From NCBI RefSeq assembly GCF_001434145.1, contig NZ_AZED01000013.1, positions 230,742 through 294,741 on the forward strand: 64,000 nucleotides of DNA. The letters are read 5' to 3'. A program made the position numbers and the translations under genes. Origin of the DNA: Lentilactobacillus otakiensis DSM 19908 = JCM 15040 (lineage in GTDB: Bacteria > Bacillota > Bacilli > Lactobacillales > Lactobacillaceae). The notes beneath the pieces were generated by a model, which saw nothing but the letters and a program-made list of their open reading frames with translations, searched no databases and was not told the DNA's origin. Shown piece after piece: positions 17,698 through 29,533 of the stretch (its first letter is position 1; every line of letters begins with the position of its first letter).

Positions 17698-20600
17698 TTA
17701 TAGATCTTTTAAAAATATTGTTCGCTTAAACAGTCCAGTAAATGACTCGTATTCAATGCTTGTATTTGAAGACAGACCAATTCCCCTAGGCTGTTGCATC
17801 TTGCCAAATGGTGTTGAAAAGCCAATATCGCTCAAAGTACCCAGTGTGGCATTTGCGTGTAACCCGTTCAAAATTTCGTTTAGAATCTCTCGCTTGCCTG
17901 AGGATATCTTCTTACTTCCATCAAACACGTTATGATTGGGAAGTCCCACAAACTTGTCCTTACCCAGGCTTAGTTTCTGACGGAACTTGTTGGTATCATA
18001 CAACGCAAAGTATTTATTAACCTTATCCAAGATCTCATCATAAACCTTATCATACGCAGCGCTCTCTTGCGCCTCATTCAGTTTTCCTTCGCTTGCAAGG
18101 GTCTTAATGGATTCATCAGAAAGAACCAGCTGCTTCGCGTTATATTGATAAGTTGAACTTCCAAGCATGAACTTCTTATCGCCATCAATCACAAGCTGGC
18201 GGTACATCACTTTACCTAAGACAACTTCAAAGTCTTCAACTGTTTGAGTGATCTCTCCAGTTTTCCGGTTTTTCTTGGACTTGGTAAATTGTGGCGTCAA
18301 GACTTCTTTCAACTCTTGGTCATATTTGGCATCACTCACATTTTTGGCAGTGTTCAGCCGATTTAGCGCCCGCATTGGCACGCCGACAACCTTATACTTA
18401 TCACCCTTCTTATCATGAATCCGGACAATCGCCATATATGCATCCGTACTGCCACTATATCCGCCATATACGTCAACTGGCTTATCGGCTTTCATTGGAA
18501 TTAACTTTTTCCGTCCTGCCTGGGATGCTGGATAAATTGTTTGGTTAAACATTGCCCCGCGAAGTGTATAAACCTCTTGCGAAATCAACATAAACTTATA
18601 ATGATAAACATCTCTCAACTGCTTAATCGAAGTCTCCCGATCCCAAATCACTTCACCGGTCTCGGTATCTGCAATTCTTGCTTGAGTATCATCCGTCAAA
18701 TCATGCAGGAAGTTGAAGTTACGCATGGTAACCTTATCTTCTCTGAACTTCTTGAAGTCGCCATAAACGAAGTATGGACGCAACTTGATATAACGGTGGT
18801 ACAAATATCTCCCTAAGAATGCGGTCAGATAAGCATCAAAGGCATGATGGTAATCATTGATTTCACGGTTTTTGATAAAGCCGAACTCATCTCGCATCTG
18901 ATGGTTCATCCGAGCTGTAATTTCGATAATCTTGGTATCATCATTTCGATATTTGTCACCGAGAATATTCGCAACCAGCTTGATTACCTGGCTGGTTTCC
19001 ACCAATTGTCTTCTGATGAAACCGTGCATCGCGAACTTACTAATAGTGTCAGGATTTGTTTGAAGATTCTTTAGTTTATGTTTATTAATCAAGCCCGCTT
19101 CAGCAAGCTGTTTCCAGAAGTGGCCCATCTTGGCACCGAACAGTTTCAATGGAACATTAGCAGACTTGCCATTGTTGACTGCCTTTGATACAAGAACGCG
19201 GTTGCTCAACGAGTCATCCTTAATGAACGCCTGCGGCAAGATATGATCAATATCATAATTACTAATTTCATCGATATTAATTGGCTCACCTGTATACATA
19301 TCCTTCCCAAGTTGAGTAAAGTACAGGTACAGACGATCAGTCAGACCCTTCTTAGACCTCGACGCATTATCCAACTCGGACAAAATGTTTGGATTCATGG
19401 ACTTTACCAGCGATTTCGCCGTGTCCTTTAAGGTGTTCTCCAGTTGTCGCTGGCGAGAAATTGTCCGCCGCGGGTTCCGGTCTTCTGAACGGGTAAATTC
19501 AATTGAGATGAACTTAGGTGCAACACCACCCATTGCTTTTTGAATATCATCGACCACTTTAACGACTTGACGAATGGCCTTCTTGTTTTGCGGAGACGTG
19601 TAGGCATCTGCCAAAACATCTTCCATGTTGGTAGACTTCATCTGATCAGCATTGGCTTCATGAATTCGTTTGGCAAAATCGTCATCGGATTGAATCTGCA
19701 TGAAGTTCTTGTTGGTATTCCAAAGCTCGTCAATAATTCGTTCACCCTGATCGTTCACAATTCCGGTCAGGAGCTTCTTGGAAAGTCGTCCCCAGCCTTG
19801 ATAACGACTGGACTCAAGATCATCCTTTTGCTTATCGGTCAACCAGGTAATTTCATTGAGTTTGGCTCGTAAAATCTTCTTGTCTTCGAAGACAGTTGAC
19901 CATTCAACGATCTTTTCAAAATCATTTTGAAGATCCGGATCGTCAACTTTATCGCCGAACAACTTTTTGAAGTCGTTGTATGTTCCGAGCGAATTATTGA
20001 ACTGATCGGGATCGGATAATCCCGAAATTTCGGGATTGTTTGGCAATCCGGTTTTACCCTTGATATAGTTTTGCAGTTTCTTGACGGAAATGTGCTTATA
20101 GTTTTCAAACAGGTCTTGATAAATCGCCTGTTTGTCGGCAACCTTCAGCGAATCGCCATTCACCCGGACCATGTTCAACTCATTAAGCACTTTGAACTTT
20201 TCATACAGCAGACTTTCATCTGGAAGAACATCTTCACCAATCAAATAAGTGTCCTTTGTGGTCATCCGCTTGATGAATTTGTTAGCAGATTCCATTCGAT
20301 CAACTTTCTCATCAAAGTTCCAAGGCGTAATTTGACCTGGTTCCTTGCGTTTCATCCAAGAAAAGACTGCGGCCCCAGACTTTTTCTGATCCTCAGGAGT
20401 AATCATTGGACCGACATAGTATGGGATTCTAAAGGCGACCAGTTCTTCGATTTTGTATTTTGCCAGGTGCAGATCATGCTTGTTAGGGTTAGATTCTGCC
20501 AGCCAAGGATAATATTTACTTTGGTGTTCGATGATTTCATCCAATTCTCTTTGGTGGAGTTGATGAGGAATGACACCATTTTGAGATGTCCGTTGCTTTG

Positions 20601-21807
20601 GCATGAATTTGTCAGCGTCAATCAGATCCATGATTTGTTTTGATAACTCTGAATCATCCAAATTCTTTTTCACACTCGAATAGAAGTCATCTTGTTCGAT
20701 GACTTTACCATCGTTGCCAACATATTGATCGTATGCCTTCTTCAATGCTGTTTTCTTCTTGGAATCTGAAATCTGACCAATCAACTTTTTGTATAACTTC
20801 AAGTGATCATGGTGGTCGTTGTACTTTTTAATCATTGATTCTGATAATGACATTCCATTTGGGACAATTTGGTTTAAGGTTACTTGAGAATACAAGTCTT
20901 GAATGATCCCAATGATCGATTGCTGATTTTCATCCATTTCAGGTAAAATTTTCTGCAGTTTGGCATCAATATCTTCATCATCAAATTTCACTGCCCAGGG
21001 ATTTGAATCTTCTGGGTCACACTGCACAGCCACATCCAGCTTGGATTTATATCCTAAAATAGCATTGATGATTTCTGAAGCAATCTTGCCGTTAAGTTTG
21101 TCCACGGCTTTATCGTCCATTGTAACCGGGACAATTTTTGGAATTTGCTTTTTCTTATCAAACTTACGAATGGATGGGTCAAGGAATTGTTGGCCGATCT
21201 TTTCACTATTTGCGAGATTAATTTGGAAAGATTCTTCAGGATTGATTGCTGTATATAATTCATTTAACTTTTTAAATTGATCATCAAAATTCACTTTCGA
21301 TGCCTTGAAGGAATCCACCGGTGTTGAATTTAAGAAATTTCCACGATACTTGACAATGTGATGAATTGCCAAATACACCATCCGAATATCGAACTGTTTA
21401 TCCTGAGTCATGAGCGCATGACGTAAGTGATAAATGGTTGGGTAATCTAGGTGGTACTGTTTGTCAGTTAAATCCGGGAACAGCATTGAGCCCTTGAATT
21501 CCTTACGTGAATCTTTGGGCGACAGATTGGATTGTTTTAAACGGGCAAAGAAGGTGCTGTCCACAGGTGTAATATATGGATCAAATATTTCATCCAATAA
21601 TTTCAACCGCCACTTTCGTCTGTTCAAACGGCGACGAGTTGTTCTGAACATCCGCCGATCAGCAGCCGGGTTGCCTTCTTGGAATAATCGAGCACCAATT
21701 GCCGTCTTCCCCTTAACGCGTAAAGGCTTGCCGTCTTCCCCCATTGCGACCCAACCAATTGATGATGTCCCGATATCGAGACCTATGTGATAATTATTAA
21801 CTTTCAT
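17698..21807 (-). CDS. cas9: CRISPR-associated endonuclease Cas9 (type II-A)
   Basis: 1369 residues from ATG 21807, which has GAGGAG nine bases upstream; the frame runs 26 codons further up without family likeness. RuvC-I Asp11 in IGLDIGTSSIGW, arginine-rich bridge helix RRMFRTTRRRLNRRKW, RuvC-II Glu770 in FISIEFTRS, HNH His855 in YDIDHILPQAF, and RuvC-III His988/Asp991 in YHHAFDAYL all match the catalytic set of S. pyogenes Cas9 (D10, E762, H840, H983, D986). The C-terminal third is the PAM-interacting part. All catalytic residues are present, so the enzyme should be active. The size agrees with the Cas9 I recall from L. buchneri (about 1371 residues). Confidence 0.98.
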   Translation of the reverse strand: MKVNNYHIGLDIGTSSIGWVAMGEDGKPLRVKGKTAIGARLFQEGNPAADRRMFRTTRRRLNRRKWRLKLLDEIFDPYITPVDSTFFARLKQSNLSPKDSRKEFKGSMLFPDLTDKQYHLDYPTIYHLRHALMTQDKQFDIRMVYLAIHHIVKYRGNFLNSTPVDSFKASKVNFDDQFKKLNELYTAINPEESFQINLANSEKIGQQFLDPSIRKFDKKKQIPKIVPVTMDDKAVDKLNGKIASEIINAILGYKSKLDVAVQCDPEDSNPWAVKFDDEDIDAKLQKILPEMDENQQSIIGIIQDLYSQVTLNQIVPNGMSLSESMIKKYNDHHDHLKLYKKLIGQISDSKKKTALKKAYDQYVGNDGKVIEQDDFYSSVKKNLDDSELSKQIMDLIDADKFMPKQRTSQNGVIPHQLHQRELDEIIEHQSKYYPWLAESNPNKHDLHLAKYKIEELVAFRIPYYVGPMITPEDQKKSGAAVFSWMKRKEPGQITPWNFDEKVDRMESANKFIKRMTTKDTYLIGEDVLPDESLLYEKFKVLNELNMVRVNGDSLKVADKQAIYQDLFENYKHISVKKLQNYIKGKTGLPNNPEISGLSDPDQFNNSLGTYNDFKKLFGDKVDDPDLQNDFEKIVEWSTVFEDKKILRAKLNEITWLTDKQKDDLESSRYQGWGRLSKKLLTGIVNDQGERIIDELWNTNKNFMQIQSDDDFAKRIHEANADQMKSTNMEDVLADAYTSPQNKKAIRQVVKVVDDIQKAMGGVAPKFISIEFTRSEDRNPRRTISRQRQLENTLKDTAKSLVKSMNPNILSELDNASRSKKGLTDRLYLYFTQLGKDMYTGEPINIDEISNYDIDHILPQAFIKDDSLSNRVLVSKAVNNGKSANVPLKLFGAKMGHFWKQLAEAGLINKHKLKNLQTNPDTISKFAMHGFIRRQLVETSQVIKLVANILGDKYRNDDTKIIEITARMNHQMRDEFGFIKNREINDYHHAFDAYLTAFLGRYLYHRYIKLRPYFVYGDFKKFREDKVTMRNFNFLHDLTDDTQARIADTETGEVIWDRETSIKQLRDVYHYKFMLISQEVYTLRGAMFNQTIYPASQAGRKKLIPMKADKPVDVYGGYSGSTDAYMAIVRIHDKKGDKYKVVGVPMRALNRLNTAKNVSDAKYDQELKEVLTPQFTKSKKNRKTGEITQTVEDFEVVLGKVMYRQLVIDGDKKFMLGSSTYQYNAKQLVLSDESIKTLASEGKLNEAQESAAYDKVYDEILDKVNKYFALYDTNKFRQKLSLGKDKFVGLPNHNVFDGSKKISSGKREILNEILNGLHANATLGTLSDIGFSTPFGKMQQPRGIGLSSNTSIEYESFTGLFKRTIFLKDL

Positions 21808-21862
21808 ACGATAAAACTCCTCAAAATAATGTTGCCCAGTAACCCCTTTAGGCACATCACCT

Positions 21863-21891
21863 ATTATGCATGAACTAATAACCATTTGAAA
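21863..21891 (-). promoter_or_regulatory. Possible cas9 operon promoter
   Basis: Minus strand -35 TTTCAA (21886-21891), 17-base spacer, -10 CATAAT (21863-21868), about 50 bases before the cas9 ATG. The -35 is weak; this is the best match I see in the 180 bases upstream. Confidence 0.35.
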
Positions 21892-22039: not shown

Positions 22040-23215
22040 CTAATTATCAACTTTCCCCAAAATAAATGTATAACTAACCTGCTTACCGACCAGCTCATGT
22101 GCCGGGTAGTTAAAAGTAATGTTATTAATGATTTGAATCCCCAGCCTATACCCAGAAAGAGAATCTCGCTTGGCGGTCGTATATCCTTCTTTATCTAGCA
22201 AACTCTTAATGCCAGCAATCTTAGTTGCATTGGAAGCACTTCGATGAGCATATAGCCACTTTTGAACGGTTGGAAATGACTTGATATCAGTGTAGCCTTT
22301 TGTGCTCATCGGATCCCACTCTGCATTAGGACTATCCGCAAAATGGTCGTAGTTATAAACAGCGATCTTCGATAATCCTAAATCGGGTTGAGAATTTGGA
22401 AATAGTTTGATAATTTCCCTAGCCAATTTTTGAGTTGTACCAGTTTGGAGGTACTGATTAAAATCGGTGTTATTTATAAATTGATCAATCGGAACATAAT
22501 TCATGCCGGTATGATCCGGGTTTAAACCTTCAGTAATTGCGGATGCCGGAACATATCCGTGAATGCTTTTTGACGTCCCATTTGGAGAGCCATCCAGATA
22601 AAAGTAGTTGGTATTCTTACCATTGTGACGCATCACAATATTGGCAGTCTTGATATAATTTGCTCCAGGATAATGCTTCAGATTGGCCACTTTCTTGGTA
22701 TGGGTGTAGTTCCACATGTACACATTTTTATGCTTATATGCATCCTTAACATGAAACGGCGTATCTTTGCCATACCACTTGATACTGGTAATCTGATACC
22801 CATAAGGACTGAAGCCGCGCTTAAGTGCGTTGGTTCTGACGTATCCCTGGATATTGCCGTAACGATTATGGACATAATAATAAGTTGCGCTCTTTAACTG
22901 ATGATAGATGCGCACTTTTTTCTGGACAAACCAAGTTGTCGTCTTGTATTTGGCAATCTTAATCCCCTTTTTATGAAAGACTGATGGTTTAATTTGTTTA
23001 GCATTCACACTATCCATGTTAATCCACAAAGTTGCCTTGGTCCTGGGGATTGCCCGAAAGGCGACATCCGAACCGGAACTTGTGTGTTGGTTATAAGTTT
23101 TCAGCGTCTTCACCCGATAATTGCCGTGGGCGGCCTGTGCGGGTTGTGGGCTAGCAATGAAAGCTAATGCGATAAATGCAATCATGACACCAACAAGTTT
23201 AACGAATTTTTTCAT
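22040..23215 (-). CDS. Secreted protein of unknown function
   Basis: 391 residues from ATG 23215 (GAGGGGG eight bases upstream; a TTG seven codons earlier is less likely). Clear signal peptide MKKFVKLVGVMIAFIALAF with an AQA-A cleavage site near residue 29. The mature part is basic and Tyr-rich, with repeated segments of the type YYVHNRYGNIQGYVRTNAL and YFYLDGSPNGTSKSIHGYVPASAI that resemble SH3-like or surface-layer repeat units. The last 150 residues are a separate domain without a motif that I know. Single-gene unit upstream of cas9; no reason to tie it to CRISPR. Confidence 0.7.
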   Translation of the reverse strand: MKKFVKLVGVMIAFIALAFIASPQPAQAAHGNYRVKTLKTYNQHTSSGSDVAFRAIPRTKATLWINMDSVNAKQIKPSVFHKKGIKIAKYKTTTWFVQKKVRIYHQLKSATYYYVHNRYGNIQGYVRTNALKRGFSPYGYQITSIKWYGKDTPFHVKDAYKHKNVYMWNYTHTKKVANLKHYPGANYIKTANIVMRHNGKNTNYFYLDGSPNGTSKSIHGYVPASAITEGLNPDHTGMNYVPIDQFINNTDFNQYLQTGTTQKLAREIIKLFPNSQPDLGLSKIAVYNYDHFADSPNAEWDPMSTKGYTDIKSFPTVQKWLYAHRSASNATKIAGIKSLLDKEGYTTAKRDSLSGYRLGIQIINNITFNYPAHELVGKQVSYTFILGKVDN

Positions 23216-23311
23216 GAAATGAGCCCCCTCTTTCAATAATAGGTTATCATGAATGCATTACGTGTGTGTTAAATAACGCATTCATTTAAGTTAAGGATTC
23301 AAATTCACGTG

Positions 23312-23340
23312 TTGACGAACGATAAACAATCATTTAAAAT
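23312..23340 (+). promoter_or_regulatory. Promoter of the trp-type transport operon
   Basis: -35 TTGACG (23312-23317), 17-base spacer, -10 TAAAAT (23335-23340). The start is expected near 23347, giving a leader of about 275 bases before the first transporter gene. Confidence 0.75.
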
Positions 23341-23373
23341 TATAGGTATTCTATCACGAAAGGAAAGATTGCT

Positions 23374-23412
23374 ATGAGTTCACTTGTTAATCGCAGTTGG
23401 CAAAGCCGGTAA
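23374..23412 (+). CDS. Putative Trp-containing leader peptide (attenuator)
   Basis: A 12-codon reading frame, MSSLVNRSWQSR, starting with ATG six bases after AAAGGAAAG, a good SD. It lies about 27 bases after the expected transcription start and right before an RNA with competing helices and an intrinsic terminator. The single Trp codon (23398-23400) is four codons before the stop codon. The operon downstream is of the TrpXYZ type, so the codon matches the presumed cargo. Translation is inferred. Confidence 0.55.
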   Translation: MSSLVNRSWQSR

Positions 23413-23568
23413 CAAGTCACATCGACGCAGATGCGACTTGATCTTAAGCATGCGATCATGAACGCATCTGTGCCGGCAATCTTTCGGAAAACGAACGGTC
23501 TGTACAGATGATTCCGGCAGGCCGACTAATCACGAGTATTTCGGTCTGACCGGAATACTCGTTTTTTG
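23413..23568 (+). promoter_or_regulatory. Candidate tryptophan attenuator RNA of the trpXYZ-type operon
   Basis: Helices visible: P1 CAAGTCACATC/GATGCGACTTG (23413-23423 with 23430-23440); P2 CAGATGCG/CGCATCTG (23428-23435 with 23463-23470), exclusive with P1; P3 TGCCGGCAATC/GATTCCGGCA (23471-23481 with 23510-23519); A1 CATCTG/CAGATG (23465-23470 with 23505-23510), exclusive with P2; antiterminator ATTCCGG/CCGGAAT (23511-23517 with 23550-23556); terminator CGAGTATTTCGG/CCGGAATACTCG (23533-23544 with 23550-23561) followed by six T. Ribosome at the leader stop would block P1, giving P2, P3 and termination. Ribosome stalled at Trp would leave P1 free, giving A1, the antiterminator and read-through. 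No T-box sequence is present. Confidence 0.6.
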
Positions 23569-23622
23569 TTCGCGTTACTGGTGGAGCTACATAAATTATT
23601 TATATTGAGGGAGACAGCTATT

Positions 23623-24624
23623 ATGAAGAAAAAGTATTTAATTTCAGGTGTTATATTAATTTTCGTTGTTATTTTAGGCTTTGCATTTGTCCAAGGTCAA
23701 CAGAAACAAAAACCACAGGCCAAGCCAACCGTCGGCATCCTGCAATTGATGTCCCATCCCGCTTTGGATGCCATCCACAAAGGAATTATCCACGGTCTTG
23801 AAGAAGAGGGCTACAAGCCTGGCAAGAACATTAAGATTGATTTCCAAAACGCTCAAAATGATCAAAGTAACTTGAAGACCATGAGCACCAAGTTTGCTAA
23901 TGAGGACGCCGATCTTTCAATCGGAATTGCCACCCCATCTGCCCAAGCGTTGGCTAACACAATTACCAAGAAGCCAGTGATTCTGGGTGCCATCACTGAT
24001 CCAAAGGGTGCTGGTTTGGTTAAGAACAACCAGAAGCCTGGTGGCAACATTACCGGAGTTTCTGACCAAGCACCACTGAAGGAACAGTTGAACTTGATCA
24101 AACAATTCATGCCAAAGATGAAGACACTGGGAATCATTTACACTTCCAGCGATGATTCCGCCGTTGCCCAGTACAAGATGTTCGTTAAGTTGTGCAAGCA
24201 GGAAAATGTTCGCTTGAAAGCATACTCAATCGCCAACACGAATGATTTAACTCAAGTTGCTGAACAGGCTGTTCGTTCGGTTGATGCAATTTACGTCCCG
24301 ACAGATAACACCATCGCAGGTGCCATGCAGACGTTGGTTGGAGCTGCCAACAACGCTAAAGTTCCCGTTTTCCCAGCCGTTGACACAATGGTCAAACAAG
24401 GTGGGGTTGCCACTTACGGAATCGACCAATATGAACTTGGTGTTGCAACTGGTAAGATGAGTGCCCAAATTTTGAAGGGCAAAAAGAAGCCATCATCAAC
24501 GCCAATCAAGTTCTTCCGTCATGGAAAACTAATCATTAATGAAAAGCAAGCAAACAAGTTGGGCATCAAAGTACCTGCTAACCTCTTGAAGGAAGCCCAA
24601 CAAAAAGGAGAATTGATCAAATGA
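23623..24624 (+). CDS. trpX: ABC transporter substrate-binding protein, TrpX-type
   Basis: 333 residues from ATG 23623 after GAGGGAG; the upstream extension overlaps the attenuator. It belongs to the ABC_sub_bind family (PF04392 type), with PTVGILQLMSHPALDAIHKGI at the start of the mature domain and GVATYGIDQYELG near the end. An N-terminal hydrophobic anchor is present but there is no lipobox Cys, unusual for a Gram-positive binding protein. In streptococci TrpXYZ is linked to tryptophan or aromatic amino acid uptake. Four-base overlap with the permease gene. Confidence 0.8.
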   Translation: MKKKYLISGVILIFVVILGFAFVQGQQKQKPQAKPTVGILQLMSHPALDAIHKGIIHGLEEEGYKPGKNIKIDFQNAQNDQSNLKTMSTKFANEDADLSIGIATPSAQALANTITKKPVILGAITDPKGAGLVKNNQKPGGNITGVSDQAPLKEQLNLIKQFMPKMKTLGIIYTSSDDSAVAQYKMFVKLCKQENVRLKAYSIANTNDLTQVAEQAVRSVDAIYVPTDNTIAGAMQTLVGAANNAKVPVFPAVDTMVKQGGVATYGIDQYELGVATGKMSAQILKGKKKPSSTPIKFFRHGKLIINEKQANKLGIKVPANLLKEAQQKGELIK

Positions 24625-25520
24625 GCATTATCGTCTCAGCCATCGGCCAAGGATTAACCTGGGGAATCGTCGGTATCGGCCTGTTTCTCACCTTTAGAAT
24701 CCTTGATTTCCCCGATATGACCGTTGAAGGTACCTTTCCAATGGGTGCCGCTGCCTGTGTGGCTGCCATTTATTCTGGGGCATCCCCACTCGTCGCAACT
24801 CTTATTGCCTTTATCGCTGGTATGCTGGCTGGTTTGGTCACCGGCCTGCTGTACACCAAGGGCAAGATTCCAGTATTACTTGCCGGCATCCTGGTTATGA
24901 CGGCTGCCTACTCAGTCAACCTGAGAATTATGGGTCGGGCAAACCTCTCATTATTCGACAAACCAACCATGTTGAAAAATCACTTCCTGGAGTCACTGCC
25001 ACCATACTTCGACAGTGTCGTTCTTGGAATCGTGGTCGTCGCAATCGTGACCGCACTGATTGTCTATTTTTTACAAACCAACCTCGGCCAAGCCTTTATT
25101 GCCACTGGTGACAATCCCAACATGGCCCGTTCGCTTGGAATCAGCACCGATGCCATGCAAATCATGGGTCTGGGCGTTTCCAACGGACTGATCGGTTTGG
25201 GTGGCGCCTTGGTTGCCCAGAACAACGGTTTTGCCGACGTCAATATGGGAATCGGTGTCATCGTGGTTGCCTTGGCTTCCATCATCATTGGTGAAGTCGT
25301 CTTTGGTGATTTAACAATGAACCAACGACTAATTGCTGTCACGATTGGAAGTATCCTATATCGCTTTGTCATTTTGCTGGTCCTCAAACTCGGTTTCAAC
25401 GCCAACGATTTGAACCTGATTTCAGCAATCGTTTTGGCATTGTTCATGATGTTCCCGGTTTTGGAGAAACGCTTCCGAATCCGTCATACTTTAGCAAAGG
25501 GGATGACTAAGCATGACTGA
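24621..25520 (+). CDS. trpY: ABC transporter permease, TrpY-type
   Basis: 299 residues, 8-9 membrane segments (GIVGIGLFLTFRILDFPDMTVEGTF, FIAGMLAGLVTGLLY). It resembles branched-chain/BMP-type permeases of the TrpXYZ family. Begins in an ATGA overlap with trpX and overlaps trpZ by eight bases, so all three are translationally coupled. Membrane channel of the presumed tryptophan importer. Confidence 0.8.
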   Translation: MSIIVSAIGQGLTWGIVGIGLFLTFRILDFPDMTVEGTFPMGAAACVAAIYSGASPLVATLIAFIAGMLAGLVTGLLYTKGKIPVLLAGILVMTAAYSVNLRIMGRANLSLFDKPTMLKNHFLESLPPYFDSVVLGIVVVAIVTALIVYFLQTNLGQAFIATGDNPNMARSLGISTDAMQIMGLGVSNGLIGLGGALVAQNNGFADVNMGIGVIVVALASIIIGEVVFGDLTMNQRLIAVTIGSILYRFVILLVLKLGFNANDLNLISAIVLALFMMFPVLEKRFRIRHTLAKGMTKHD

Positions 25521-26286
25521 GCCAATTTTTGAACTCAAAGATATTGTTGTGACAGTCAATCATGGTACACCTGAGCAGATCAACATTATGGATCACGTTA
25601 ATTTAGCAGTTTTTCCAGGCGACTTCATCACCATCCTGGGATCTAACGGTGCTGGTAAATCAACCCTGTTCAATGTCATCGGCGGTAACATTCCAGTTTC
25701 CAGTGGTCAAATTCTGCTAAACGGTAAAGATATCACCAGCATGTCGGTCGAACGTCGAACCCGCTTCTTGAGCCGGGTCTTCCAGGACCCTAAGATGGGA
25801 ACTGCTCCGCGGATGACGGTTGCGGAAAACCTGTTGCTATCAGAAAAACGTGGCCAACATCGCGGCTTCGGCCCCAGACATCTCAAGACCCACATGGATA
25901 AGTTCAAGCAGATTACCTCCGTTATGAATAATGGTTTGGAGCATCGGTTGAACACAGCTACTGGTAAGCTTTCCGGTGGCCAACGTCAAGCTTTGAGTTT
26001 CCTGATGGCAACCATCAAGCGACCGGACATTCTCCTCTTGGATGAACATACCGCCGCTTTAGATCCACAGACCTCTCAAGAGCTAATGACTGCGACCAAT
26101 GACCAGATCACCCGGAACCATTTAACCTGCTTGATGATCACCCACCATTTGGATGATGCATTGAAGTACGGTAATCGGCTGATTGTCTTGGACAATGGTA
26201 AGATCACTTATGATATTTCCGGTGATGAAAAAGATAATCTGACCAAGGAAGAATTGCTCGGATTCTTTAGCGACATTGAAGAGTAG
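25513..26286 (+). CDS. trpZ: ABC transporter ATP-binding protein, TrpZ-type
   Basis: 257 residues. Walker A GSNGAGKST near residue 43, Q-loop in RVFQDPKMG, signature LSGGQRQAL near residue 153, Walker B ILLLDEHTAALDP and switch His in MITHHLDDAL. Energises the TrpXY importer at the inner face of the membrane. Last gene of the operon; a strong terminator follows 30 bases later. Confidence 0.85.
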   Translation: MTEPIFELKDIVVTVNHGTPEQINIMDHVNLAVFPGDFITILGSNGAGKSTLFNVIGGNIPVSSGQILLNGKDITSMSVERRTRFLSRVFQDPKMGTAPRMTVAENLLLSEKRGQHRGFGPRHLKTHMDKFKQITSVMNNGLEHRLNTATGKLSGGQRQALSFLMATIKRPDILLLDEHTAALDPQTSQELMTATNDQITRNHLTCLMITHHLDDALKYGNRLIVLDNGKITYDISGDEKDNLTKEELLGFFSDIEE

Positions 26287-26631: not shown

Positions 26632-26640
26632 GTGAACATT

Positions 26641-28161
26641 ATGCAAAATCAACAATCAACTCCAAAGAAACGTAGATTTAAGATGCCCTCGGCGTACACG
26701 ATCTTATTTCTGATTATTATATTTGTAGCTATTTTAACTTGGATCATACCTGCTGGACAGTACAACACCGACAAGGCCGGTAATATTATTGCCCACACCT
26801 ACAAGGCAGTTGCCTCTAATCCACAAGGTATTTGGGACGTCTTCTCAGCCCCAATTTATGGAATGGTCGGAAATGACACGACGGAAGGTGCAATCTCCGT
26901 TTCACTATTCATCTTGGTAATTGGTGGATTTTTGGGTGTCGTTAACCAAACCAAGGCACTCGATGATGGAATTGCCACTGTTGTTTCGAGATACAAAGGC
27001 AAGGAAAAAGTTTTGATTCCCCTGCTGATGATCTTATTTGCACTTGGTGGGTCAACTTACGGCATGGCCGAAGAAACCATTGCCTTTTACCCACTGTTAA
27101 TTCCAGTTATGATCGGGGTCGGCTTCGATTCACTGGTCGCCGTCGCAATTGTGCTGGTCGGTTCGCAAGTTGGGTGCTTGGCTTCAACGGTTAACCCATT
27201 TGCGACCGGTGTTGCTTCACAAACGCTTCATATTTCACCAGGTGACGGGATTATTTCCCGGGCCGTGCTGTTTGTCATTGTGGTAACGATTAGTATTTTG
27301 TTTGTTTACCGATATGCAGCCAAAATTGAAAAAGACCCTTCTAAGTCTTATGTGTTTGACCAACGTGAGGCAGACTTGAAGCGGTTTGCTTTGAACCATG
27401 AAGACCAACCCGGCACTAAGATGACCGGCCGTCAAAAGGCCGTTCTTTGGCTGTTTGGTTTGACCTTCCTGATTATGATCATGGGACTCATTCCATGGGA
27501 TCAAATTAACAAGAACTGGACCTTCTTCACCAGCTTTACTAAATGGGTTCAAAATGTCCCATTCTTAGGCAGTTTGGTTGGCTCAAACTTGGTACCATTT
27601 GGTTCATGGTACTTCACTGAAATTACGACTCTCTTCTTCTTGATGTCAATCGTTGTCATGTTTGTCTTCCGGATGAAAGAGGCAACATTCATTGAATCAT
27701 TCTTAGCTGGAATGAGCGACTTCATGGGCGTTGCCATCGTGGTTGCCGTTGCTCGTGGGATTCAAGTTGTCATGAACGACGGAAACATTACCGCAACCGT
27801 CCTCCACTGGGGCGAAATGGGCTTGTCCAACCTCGGTTCAGTCGTCTTCATCATTTTGGCCTACGTCTTCTACATCCCAATGTCCTTCTTGATTCCATCG
27901 ACTTCAGGCCTTGCAGCCGCTACGATGGGAATCATCGGACCAATGGGTAAATTTGCCGGCGTTGACCCAAGCCTGGTTGTCACCGCATACCAGAGTGCAT
28001 CCGGCTGGGTTAACCTGATTACCCCAACCTCTGGTGTTGTCATGGGAGCCTTAACCATTGCCCACGTCAACATCACGACTTGGTGGAAGTTTATGTTCAA
28101 ATTGATGATTTACCTGTTCTTGGCTACCGCTATTTTTCTCGGAGTAATGGCCATACTTTAA
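26641..28161 (+). CDS. YfcC-family membrane carrier (putative basic amino acid or C4-dicarboxylate type)
   Basis: 506 residues from ATG 26641 (AGGAAG eight bases upstream). Around 12 membrane segments; motifs FALGGSTYGMAEETIAFYPLLIP and GSQVGCLASTVNPFATGVAS are typical of YfcC/DcuC-like carriers of the ion-transporter superfamily, often near arginine or peptide metabolism genes. Substrate unknown; the PepV-type dipeptidase gene follows 25 bases downstream, so a peptide or amino acid link is likely. Confidence 0.75.
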   Translation: MQNQQSTPKKRRFKMPSAYTILFLIIIFVAILTWIIPAGQYNTDKAGNIIAHTYKAVASNPQGIWDVFSAPIYGMVGNDTTEGAISVSLFILVIGGFLGVVNQTKALDDGIATVVSRYKGKEKVLIPLLMILFALGGSTYGMAEETIAFYPLLIPVMIGVGFDSLVAVAIVLVGSQVGCLASTVNPFATGVASQTLHISPGDGIISRAVLFVIVVTISILFVYRYAAKIEKDPSKSYVFDQREADLKRFALNHEDQPGTKMTGRQKAVLWLFGLTFLIMIMGLIPWDQINKNWTFFTSFTKWVQNVPFLGSLVGSNLVPFGSWYFTEITTLFFLMSIVVMFVFRMKEATFIESFLAGMSDFMGVAIVVAVARGIQVVMNDGNITATVLHWGEMGLSNLGSVVFIILAYVFYIPMSFLIPSTSGLAAATMGIIGPMGKFAGVDPSLVVTAYQSASGWVNLITPTSGVVMGALTIAHVNITTWWKFMFKLMIYLFLATAIFLGVMAIL

Positions 28162-28186
28162 TATTTGATAGGAGGCACCAACACAC

Positions 28187-29533
28187 ATGTCAGAAAAATT
28201 AGTTACAGAAACAGAACAAAATGCAGCCGTTGAAGGTTTAAAGCGCCTTGTCAGCAAGCCTTCCGCTTACGATCAAGCCACCGTTTCCAAGACCACACCA
28301 TTTGGTCAAGGGATTGATGATGCTTTAACTGAAGTGTTGAAGATCGCTGAAGAAAATGGCTTCAAGACCTTTAAAGATCCTGAAGGCCACTACGGTTATG
28401 CTGAAATTGGTTCCGGTGATAAGATCTTCGGAATCATTGGCCATATGGACGTTGTTCCAGCCGGCGATCCAAATGACTGGGATTCAGATCCATTTACTGC
28501 CACAATCAAAGATGGTTACATCTATGGTCGGGGTACTCAAGATGACAAGGGCCCATCGATGGCCGCGATGTTTGCCGTTAAGGCCTTGGTTGACCGTGGC
28601 TATAAATTCAATTGCCGAATTCGATTTATCTTCGGCACTGACGAAGAAACCTTATGGCGCGGCATTGCCGTTTACAATCAAAAGGAATCACCAATTGATT
28701 TTGGGATTGCCCCTGATGCGGAGTTTCCACTGATTTATGCCGAAAAAGGGCTCGAGCAATCTTACCTGGTCGGTCCTGGAATGGACGATTTGTCGATTGA
28801 TTTGAAGAATGCTTTTAACGCCGTTCCGGCCAAGGCACCATATAATGGGCCAAAGTTGGCCGAAGTGAAGGCATCCCTCGATAAACACGGCTTCAAATAT
28901 GAAGACCATGGCAGCGACGGGATTACCGTTGTTGGCAAAGCTGTTCATGCCATGAACGCCCCTCAAGGCACCAACGCCGTATTGCGCTTGGCAATTGCCT
29001 TGGACGACGTCTTCCCTAACCAAGTGCTCGACTTCTTCGGCAAGAAATTCCAAGAAGATGCCACTGGCACAAACCTATTAGGCGACGTGGAAGACGAAGC
29101 ATCCGGTCATCTGACCATGAACATTTCCAGCCTCAAGATTGACAAAAAAGAGACCCGCATGCAAGTCGACATGCGAATCCCAGTGACGGTTGATCATGAT
29201 GAACTGATTGAAAAACTCAAGCGGGCCGCTGAACCTTACGACTTGCACTATGAAGCATTCGATTACGTTGCCCCGCTGTATGTGCCAACCGATAGTGACT
29301 TGGTTAAGACTTTGATGTCGACTTATAAAGACTTGACAGGTGACGATACTCAACCACAGATTTCAGGTGGTGCGACGTTTGCCCGTACCATGAACAACTG
29401 CGTGGCCTATGGTGCCATGTTGCCAGGAACCCCTGATTTCATGCATCAAGTCAATGAAAATTGGGAACTTAAGAGTATGTTCAAAGCGATGGATATTTAC
29501 GCTGAAGCGATTAAGCGACTTTGCACGGATTAA
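28187..29533 (+). CDS. pepV: M20-family dipeptidase, PepV-like
   Basis: 448 residues. Metal-binding motifs of the M20 family: GHMDVVPAGDP near residue 87 (His, Asp), GRGTQDDKGP near residue 117 (bridging Asp), FIFGTDEET near residue 147 (Glu pair) and a later HQVNENW His. The length and DPNDWDSDPF sequence fit PepV of lactobacilli, a cytosolic zinc dipeptidase releasing N-terminal residues from hydrophobic dipeptides. AGGAGG is 11 bases before the ATG. Likely co-transcribed with the carrier upstream. Confidence 0.88.
   Translation: MSEKLVTETEQNAAVEGLKRLVSKPSAYDQATVSKTTPFGQGIDDALTEVLKIAEENGFKTFKDPEGHYGYAEIGSGDKIFGIIGHMDVVPAGDPNDWDSDPFTATIKDGYIYGRGTQDDKGPSMAAMFAVKALVDRGYKFNCRIRFIFGTDEETLWRGIAVYNQKESPIDFGIAPDAEFPLIYAEKGLEQSYLVGPGMDDLSIDLKNAFNAVPAKAPYNGPKLAEVKASLDKHGFKYEDHGSDGITVVGKAVHAMNAPQGTNAVLRLAIALDDVFPNQVLDFFGKKFQEDATGTNLLGDVEDEASGHLTMNISSLKIDKKETRMQVDMRIPVTVDHDELIEKLKRAAEPYDLHYEAFDYVAPLYVPTDSDLVKTLMSTYKDLTGDDTQPQISGGATFARTMNNCVAYGAMLPGTPDFMHQVNENWELKSMFKAMDIYAEAIKRLCTD

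Follow-up and report, generated by a model that had tools for sequence, protein, structure and literature searches.

The window, i.e., the whole stretch of 64,000 nucleotides of the Lentilactobacillus otakiensis DSM 19908 genome that was analysed (contig NZ_AZED01000013.1), carries on its forward strand an ABC transporter operon preceded by a leader with several alternative pairings. The first gene was assigned to trpX by a family model, and the two following ones, from their position and from weaker matches, are those that we take to be trpY and trpZ. The features of the locus are as follows:

23312..23340, + strand: sigma-70 type promoter TTGACG-17-TAAAAT, with 10 of 12 consensus matches
ATG 23374 to TAA 23412, + strand: leader ORF MSSLVNRSWQSR* of 12 codons, with the SD sequence AAGGAAAG 5' of the ATG
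23398-23400, + strand: TGG, the lone Trp codon of the leader ORF, read from the sequence
23405..23409, + strand: segment 0, GCCGG, within the leader ORF; pairs with 23473-23477
23413..23423, + strand: segment 1, CAAGTCACATC, 3' of the stop codon; pairs with segment 2
23428..23440, + strand: segment 2, CAGATGCGACTTG; 23430-23440 pairs with segment 1 and 23428-23435 with segment 3
23463..23471, + strand: segment 3, CGCATCTGT; its partner is segment 2, or 23504-23510 (pairing 3:4)
23473..23477, + strand: segment 3x, CCGGC; pairs with segment 0
23496..23510, + strand: segment 4; CGGTCTG (23496-23502) is the 5' arm of the putative relay hairpin 4:5 and ACAGATG (23504-23510) the partner of segment 3
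23511..23525, + strand: segment 5, ATTCCGGCAGGCCGA; is the 3' side of hairpin 4:5 or pairs as antiterminator with 23541-23556
23532..23567, + strand: intrinsic terminator 6:7, with 14 pairs (G-T allowed) in 23532-23562 and six T at 23562-23567
23541-23556, + strand: antiterminator target (terminator loop and 3' arm), pairing with segment 5
23623..24624, + strand: trpX, tryptophan ABC transporter substrate-binding protein (NF041285, 491 bits, cut-off 390)
24621..25520, + strand: permease gene, trpY-type, from its position and permease matches below their cut-offs
25513..26286, + strand: ATP-binding protein gene, trpZ-type, from ABC ATPase matches below equivalog cut-offs

A preliminary description, made from the letters alone, had placed here a promoter, a short SD-led frame with one Trp codon, competing helices and a six-T terminator about 50 bases before the first gene. 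All of these were confirmed at the same coordinates, the frame being the ORF at 23374-23412 with its TGG at 23398-23400, and the terminator sitting 55 nt 5' of the trpX ATG (23623). CAGATG at 23428 and 23505 and CATCTG at 23465 are likewise present and pair as claimed, as do ATTCCGG at 23511 and CCGGAAT at 23550. Since a promoter scan returned 13 sites of such quality in 4.6 kb, with 7.6 expected, the promoter match alone is weak; in addition, a TTGAC box and a -10-like hexamer were found 70-75 nt 5' of the leader stop in all 17 leaders checked (the window, 15 further Lentilactobacillus and the unclassified Lactobacillaceae assembly L012). As for the surroundings, a 398-aa ORF with a signal-peptide-like start and no NCBIfam match (22040-23236, - strand) diverges from the leader, a DcuC/YfcC-type carrier and an M20 dipeptidase lie 3' of the transporter genes (26632-29533), and a 1395-aa ORF (17698-21885, - strand) resembles, by eye and from its N-terminus, a type II Cas9.

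The arrangement would allow the following sequence of events. When charged Trp-tRNA is short, a ribosome would wait at the Trp codon and leave segment 1 free, so that helix 1:2 could form; segment 3 would thereby be released to pair with segment 4 (3:4), which would block the relay hairpin 4:5, and segment 5 could then pair with the terminator loop and 3' arm (5:6), resulting in read-through. If the ribosome goes on to the stop codon, it would instead cover segment 1, and 2:3, then 4:5, and then the terminator 6:7 would form, turning the operon off. We infer the stall, the folding order and the response to tryptophan. Of the features by which attenuators are recognized, a short SD-led ORF with cognate codons is present, its translation being predicted, and so are putatively exclusive helices that end in a terminator, with 3:4 weak in Lactobacillaceae. 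On the other side, a classic attenuator would be expected to have more than the lone Trp codon seen here, which was counted against this reading.

For the comparison with other species, the best 80 of the 114 trpX relatives found were fetched as loci, 72 of them from Lactobacillaceae (L001-L071 and L074). Conservation of the leader peptide had been proposed beforehand as a check, and all 72 of these Lactobacillaceae loci among the best 80 of 114 relatives have a leader frame that carries Trp close to its end (67 recovered by pattern, L016, L040, L041 and L043 by a wider search, and L074 separately); the leader start of L016 has no ATG, GTG or TTG, which was counted against the attenuator reading. 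Within the genus, 22 of 24 genomes have a close trpX, which is preceded by the element in 22 of 22 (19 found by the covariance model R1, see below, and three by reading), a count that refers to the close trpX only, as a further, more remote gene resembling trpX (33-36% identity) occurs in four of the genus genomes. For the window's own genome, R1 gave one copy, at the trpX leader. Of 83 non-redundant TrpX/TrpB leaders, 74 have, at the right place, an ORF that starts with an SD-led ATG and includes Trp among its last 9 codons, with 0.8 expected from dinucleotide shuffles; the 83 include a few Phe/Tyr leaders that are unable to score. By this comparison the predicted leader frame and its Trp codon are well established. 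The single regulatory codon of the preliminary description holds for the window and fails as a general rule, since many relatives have two Trp codons (WQNWRR*); on the sequences compared, it is a habit of Lentilactobacillus and some other groups.

Some loci upstream of trpX depart from the compact layout. Inserted stretches or repeats were seen near the attenuator in L004, L011, L040, L041 and L043: L004 has two similar insert copies between attenuator and trpX, a repeat resembling it was found 5' of the leader in L011, and in L040, L041 and L043 the distance from leader stop to trpX, with the insert, is 686-785 nt. Upstream of the trpX relatives L073, L075 and L078, a common GGTAGNACGGTAGGGAAA...TTCCCTCCGTC stretch was noticed by eye.

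The tail of the leader peptide is relevant to another explanation, in which WQSR* would act as an arrest peptide, stalling the ribosome at the stop codon under high free tryptophan and favouring termination, TnaC being the model for such a case. Three codons separate the last Trp from the stop in 61 of 71 leaders, four in 9 and two in one, and this near-fixed distance speaks for arrest, as does the frequency of the WQSR* tail in Lactobacillaceae; the coverage of segment 1 by a terminating ribosome would be the same under both models. However, the tails vary (WQSQH*, WQFR*, WHIR*, WQSH*, DWQSHVE*) and the leaders of other classes described below carry runs of His, Leu, Tyr or Phe, so that the rate of decoding fits better than one arrest peptide. 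We thus regard nascent-peptide arrest as improbable.

Judged from its sequence relationships, the element is not an isolated circuit, being divergently related to the published trpB motif (RF04312, SRC-39-1). This motif was presented in 2024, in the accessible text of PMC11109978, as a strong riboswitch candidate with covariation and more than 900 representatives in Firmicutes and Fusobacteria, its ligand being unknown according to the authors, who left room for control by a protein factor or for classic attenuation. The window shares with it, as far as that text describes the motif, the P1 hairpin, a downstream hairpin and the place before an amino-acid ABC transporter, and the same accessible text makes no mention of a leader ORF, of codon classes or of a second terminator (PMC11109978). 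In the trpB motif the second hairpin is a terminator with a U-run, whereas hairpin 4:5 of the window has no U-run and the U-run is found on a further hairpin.

The relationship is distant. Against RF04312 the window scores 25.4 bits (E 0.53), under the gathering cut-off of 59 bits, and we therefore name it a divergent relative and not a member. None of the 24 genus genomes has an RF04312 match at E 0.001, and among nine Lactobacillaceae loci compared with Rfam, two from outside the genus matched RF04312 at 48.4 and 40.1 bits, both under the cut-off, with RF04312 absent from the remaining seven at E up to 0.5. As Rfam alone missed the whole genus, our own models and trpX-anchored loci were required. 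Model R1 was trained on 50 Trp-type sequences, hand-picked from a list of 106 without a written rule, with all Lentilactobacillus and L012 left out; its alignment also dropped regions outside 70-135 nt, the non-Trp classes and some Trp-type rows. In a search of 228,560 bases, R1 recovered every one of the 17 held-out leaders; L014 had E 0.02 and the other 16 had E 1.9e-4 or better, the window being matched at 44.3 bits (E 4.1e-6). The best match outside the held-out leaders was L077 of Peptacetobacter at E 0.39, below which none of the eight fetched loci outside Lactobacillaceae was found; on reading, L077 has the leader MKNKFYYYYYNLYI* in a layout that resembles this one. When whole genomes were searched at E 0.1, three of 22 trpX leaders escaped R1. 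Since 42 of about 44 R1 training rows from outside the Lactobacillaceae TrpX loci are themselves RF04312 matches, R1 links the window to RF04312, and homology of its leader and P1 core to the motif is supported by this model.

RF04312 itself matched in 20 of 60 relatives, in 210 of 395 genomes of the order, in 43 of 147 genomes of the order of G416 (E 0.01) and in 4 of 398 across the phylum. We collected 167 loci (L081-L247), comprising the best-scoring matches and 60 hand-picked among the matches listed, mostly second copies per genome. Calling the leaders with a loose SD rule that also accepted GTG and TTG starts, an ORF was obtained in 161 of the 167, two of which (L102 and L103) are likely false hits. 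No leader was called at L098 and L137, both located before trpX-type genes and counted against the attenuator reading, nor at L141, L193, L227 and L246, all four of which look like false hits. L102 (G304) and L103 (G136), both from the phylum scan, were rejected as they look false, without a fitting leader or gene.

The regulatory codons of these leaders go with the downstream gene, the genes having been grouped by BLAST and their families verified on representatives (ten with NCBIfam, nine with Pfam). Trp leaders (101) precede TrpX/TrpY in 90 cases, TrpB in five, OppA in three and no called ORF in another three, and all five TrpB loci have Trp leaders. The 11 His leaders all lie before HisS/HisZ, and HisS/HisZ loci have His leaders in 11 of 11. 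Eight of the nine Leu leaders are credible, all before NSS symporters, the ninth being the likely false hit L102; the remaining classes are Tyr (12), Phe (19), weak Phe/Tyr (7) and other (2). Leu, Phe and Tyr leaders precede different symporter clades, and in the genome G913 different genes (L175, L217, L218) are preceded by Phe, Tyr and His leaders. When leader class is mapped on a tree of 30 NSS proteins, two changes are counted, which is the minimum for three classes, with the Phe group alone needing two. In a FastTree phylogeny of 98 TrpX-type proteins (105 before the removal of five permease-first and two leaderless loci), which gave long-branch warnings including one for L204, the seven with Phe/Tyr leaders form one clade. 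As far as their sequences go, both trees show clustering and not many independent switches. In this collection, OppA-type oligopeptide-binding proteins were observed behind Trp-codon leaders (L188, L199 and L203, the first two family-checked), and LIVCS (BrnQ-type) carriers, annotated as branched-chain, behind Tyr/Phe leaders (L165, L169), which suggests an aromatic substrate for the latter.

These data bear on the published reading of the motif as a riboswitch, in which the RNA itself would bind tryptophan or a related ligand and the ORF would be incidental. The covariation on which the published candidate stands (PMC11109978) and the sequence conservation of the P1 hairpin count for it. However, a leader ORF was called in 161 of 167 loci (the two likely false hits included), a Trp-type ORF arises by chance in only 0.8 of 83, and the codons switch between Trp, His, Leu, Phe and Tyr with the gene while one family model still matches. 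That the leader codons follow the gene argues for ribosome stalling and against ligand binding by the RNA, and we consider a riboswitch highly improbable.

For the pairing statistics, 231 loci were reduced to 114 at 85% identity, excluding L102, L103 and the leaderless loci. RNAalifold on alignment A1 recovered helix 2:3 only, in which 8 of 10 pairs vary on both sides, and this bears out the conservation of pairing that had been proposed as a further check; the other helices were therefore tested by comparing the duplex energy of each segment with its own partner and with partners from other species (2000 permutations). Mean own and cross energies were -15.05 and -8.68 for 1:2 (reversed -7.25; own better in 105 of 114), -10.55 and -7.60 for 0:3x (reversed -6.64; 89 of 114) and -12.05 and -10.44 for 3:4 (reversed -10.30; 90 of 114), and for these three helices none of the 2000 permutations was as good as the real pairing. 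For 2:3 the values were -16.91 and -11.25 (reversed -11.84; 113 of 114), a test that is circular because segments 2 and 3 had been chosen as the best hairpin. Compared with identically searched shuffles, the 2:3 stem has a score of 24.5 (shuffles, 14.2), and in 101 of 114 loci it exceeds each of its 20 shuffles; in the window it reaches 24.5, where the highest shuffle has 18. For several Secundilactobacillus loci, another hairpin was taken as 2:3 by the automatic search.

Of seven control pairs, five were non-significant over all loci, and the negative controls 0:2 and 0:4 were significant, so the permutation test partly measures relatedness. Within 20 Lactobacillaceae, 3:4 was not significant (73 of 1000 permutations as good), and the controls 0:1 and 0:4 of this family were low (32 and 19 of 1000). 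Taken with the leader frame, the comparison gives good grounds for helices 1:2 and 2:3 and for the relatedness to the trpB motif, while the predicted pairings 0:3x, 3:4 and 5:6 are borne out in part.

The position of segment 1 past the stop codon means that it would be free during a stall and covered at termination. Assuming the ribosome edge at toeprint position +16, a ribosome at the Trp codon of the window would end 3 nt 5' of the first base of segment 1, and 10 of the 11 nt of this segment would be covered by a ribosome at the stop codon. Across the 114 loci, at least 80% of segment 1 is left free by a stall at the first regulatory codon in 114 and at least 60% by a stall at the last one in 109, and at least half is covered by a terminating ribosome in 105, part of this good geometry being built in, as the search for segment 1 started at a fixed place near the stop.

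The folding energies of the window are less clear. Minimum free energy folding alone did not separate the two states of its leader. With forced helices, 1:2 was favoured in the stalled state for transcripts ending at 23470, 23520 (by 0.2) and 23557 (-57.4 kcal/mol for the on chain, -52.7 for the 2:3 state), whereas 2:3 was better at 23485 (-23.1 vs -19.6), 23500 (-27.5 vs -25.2), 23531 (-39.5 vs -36.9) and 23568 (-59.0 vs -57.4). In the stop state, at end 23557, 2:3 without 4:5 was better than with it (-49.7 vs -43.4). Given that the chain is disfavoured at several ends, the switch would rely on folding order, i.e., it would be kinetic, and the energies are equivocal, neither proving nor excluding an attenuation switch.

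A first hairpin followed by a later, T-tailed one was found in 75 of the 114 non-redundant loci, the loci without both hairpins being removed for the coupling test. The 3' arm of the first hairpin pairs with the second at a mean of -15.20 with its own partner, -10.33 across species and -9.44 reversed, and the own partner is better in 71 of 75 by row and 70 by column, with none of 2000 permutations as good. The 5' arm, taken as a control, gave a smaller shift (-8.36 and -6.88; 48 of 75), yet it beats all permutations too. In the Lactobacillaceae subset, 3' arm coupling was better in 12 of 18 by row and 15 of 18 by column. Thus, the second terminator seems to be coupled to the first in 75 of 114 loci. 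In the window, two of the 11 tail bases of the first hairpin (4:5) are T, and the 5:6 pairing has -23.7 kcal/mol; among the 17 leaders of the genus set, the tail has 0-4 T in 15, 5 in L010 and 6 in L025. Lacking a U-run, the first hairpin of the window may act as a relay, and we infer from these tails that an ancestral terminator was probably turned into a relay in most of the genus.

Control by a T-box, which reads uncharged tRNA directly and without translation, or by TRAP would be a further explanation for trpXYZ. The trpX gene of S. suis is reportedly under a T-box (PMC9382623), and in the window's own genome one lies upstream of a gene run that includes trpB (contig C1:168000-173100, by eye a trp operon). 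However, of 40 T-box matches in this genome, 11 of them over the Rfam cut-off, none is at the leader, and a comparison of 22900-24000 with Rfam that admitted E values up to 5 gave no T-box either. A TRAP gene was not found (with B. subtilis as the positive control), nor was a run of spaced G/TAG triplets in the leader. We give this alternative, which had been named beforehand as one to be checked, almost no credence here, and tryptophan biosynthesis and uptake appear, from these matches, to be read by two different devices in the window's genome. By eye, the T-box-like sequences GGTGGTAACACGG and GGTGGTACCACGG were recognized upstream of the trpX relatives L072 and L076, and T-boxes may thus be in use at some trpX relatives outside Lactobacillales.

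Taken together, we consider it very probable that the leader is a ribosome-mediated tryptophan attenuator which would switch trpXYZ on when charged Trp-tRNA is short, so the reading of the preliminary description is supported by the comparison of sequences. Its label of a proteobacterial-style circuit does not quite fit. In the trp and his leaders of E. coli, cognate codons in the leader peptide are combined with mutually exclusive hairpins and an intrinsic terminator, whereas in the window segment 1 lies after the stop codon and would be masked by termination rather than by the stall, only one Trp codon is present, and a putative relay hairpin is added before the terminator.

Leader-peptide attenuation by histidine has already been reported in Firmicutes (PMC2965389, 2010; PMC9413887, 2022). 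As described in the accessible parts of these papers, those systems have a short ORF with cognate codons, alternative hairpins and a terminator like the element studied here, and their hisS-type and hisZ-type targets recur among our RF04312 matches; in those same parts, the papers deal with histidine leaders and make no link to the trpB motif (PMC2965389, PMC9413887). In searches of open-access PMC papers, preprints excluded, we came across no description of a leader peptide belonging to the trpB motif, nor of leader peptides for Trp, Phe, Tyr or Leu in these groups. Multi-specific control of amino-acid transporters by codon identity is shared with the T-box (RF00230), of which Leu, Trp and Phe types precede NSS paralogues according to the accessible text of PMC2494555, although no covariance match to it exists at the window leader.

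We think it likely that the whole trpB motif is a multi-specific family of leader-peptide attenuators of Bacillota, a counterpart of the T-box read by translation and not a riboswitch, in which one scaffold would have been re-coded for Trp, Phe, Tyr, Leu or His, often with two serial terminators, the freed 3' arm of the first holding the second open. If so, the mechanism of a published orphan riboswitch candidate would be settled, and leader-peptide attenuation in Gram-positives would extend to at least five amino acids, beside the T-boxes. It would then be possible to predict what unassigned transporters carry from their leader codons, which hint at Phe/Tyr for one clade of TrpX-type binding proteins, at Tyr/Phe for the two LIVCS carriers and at Tyr for the Peptacetobacter TrpX relative.
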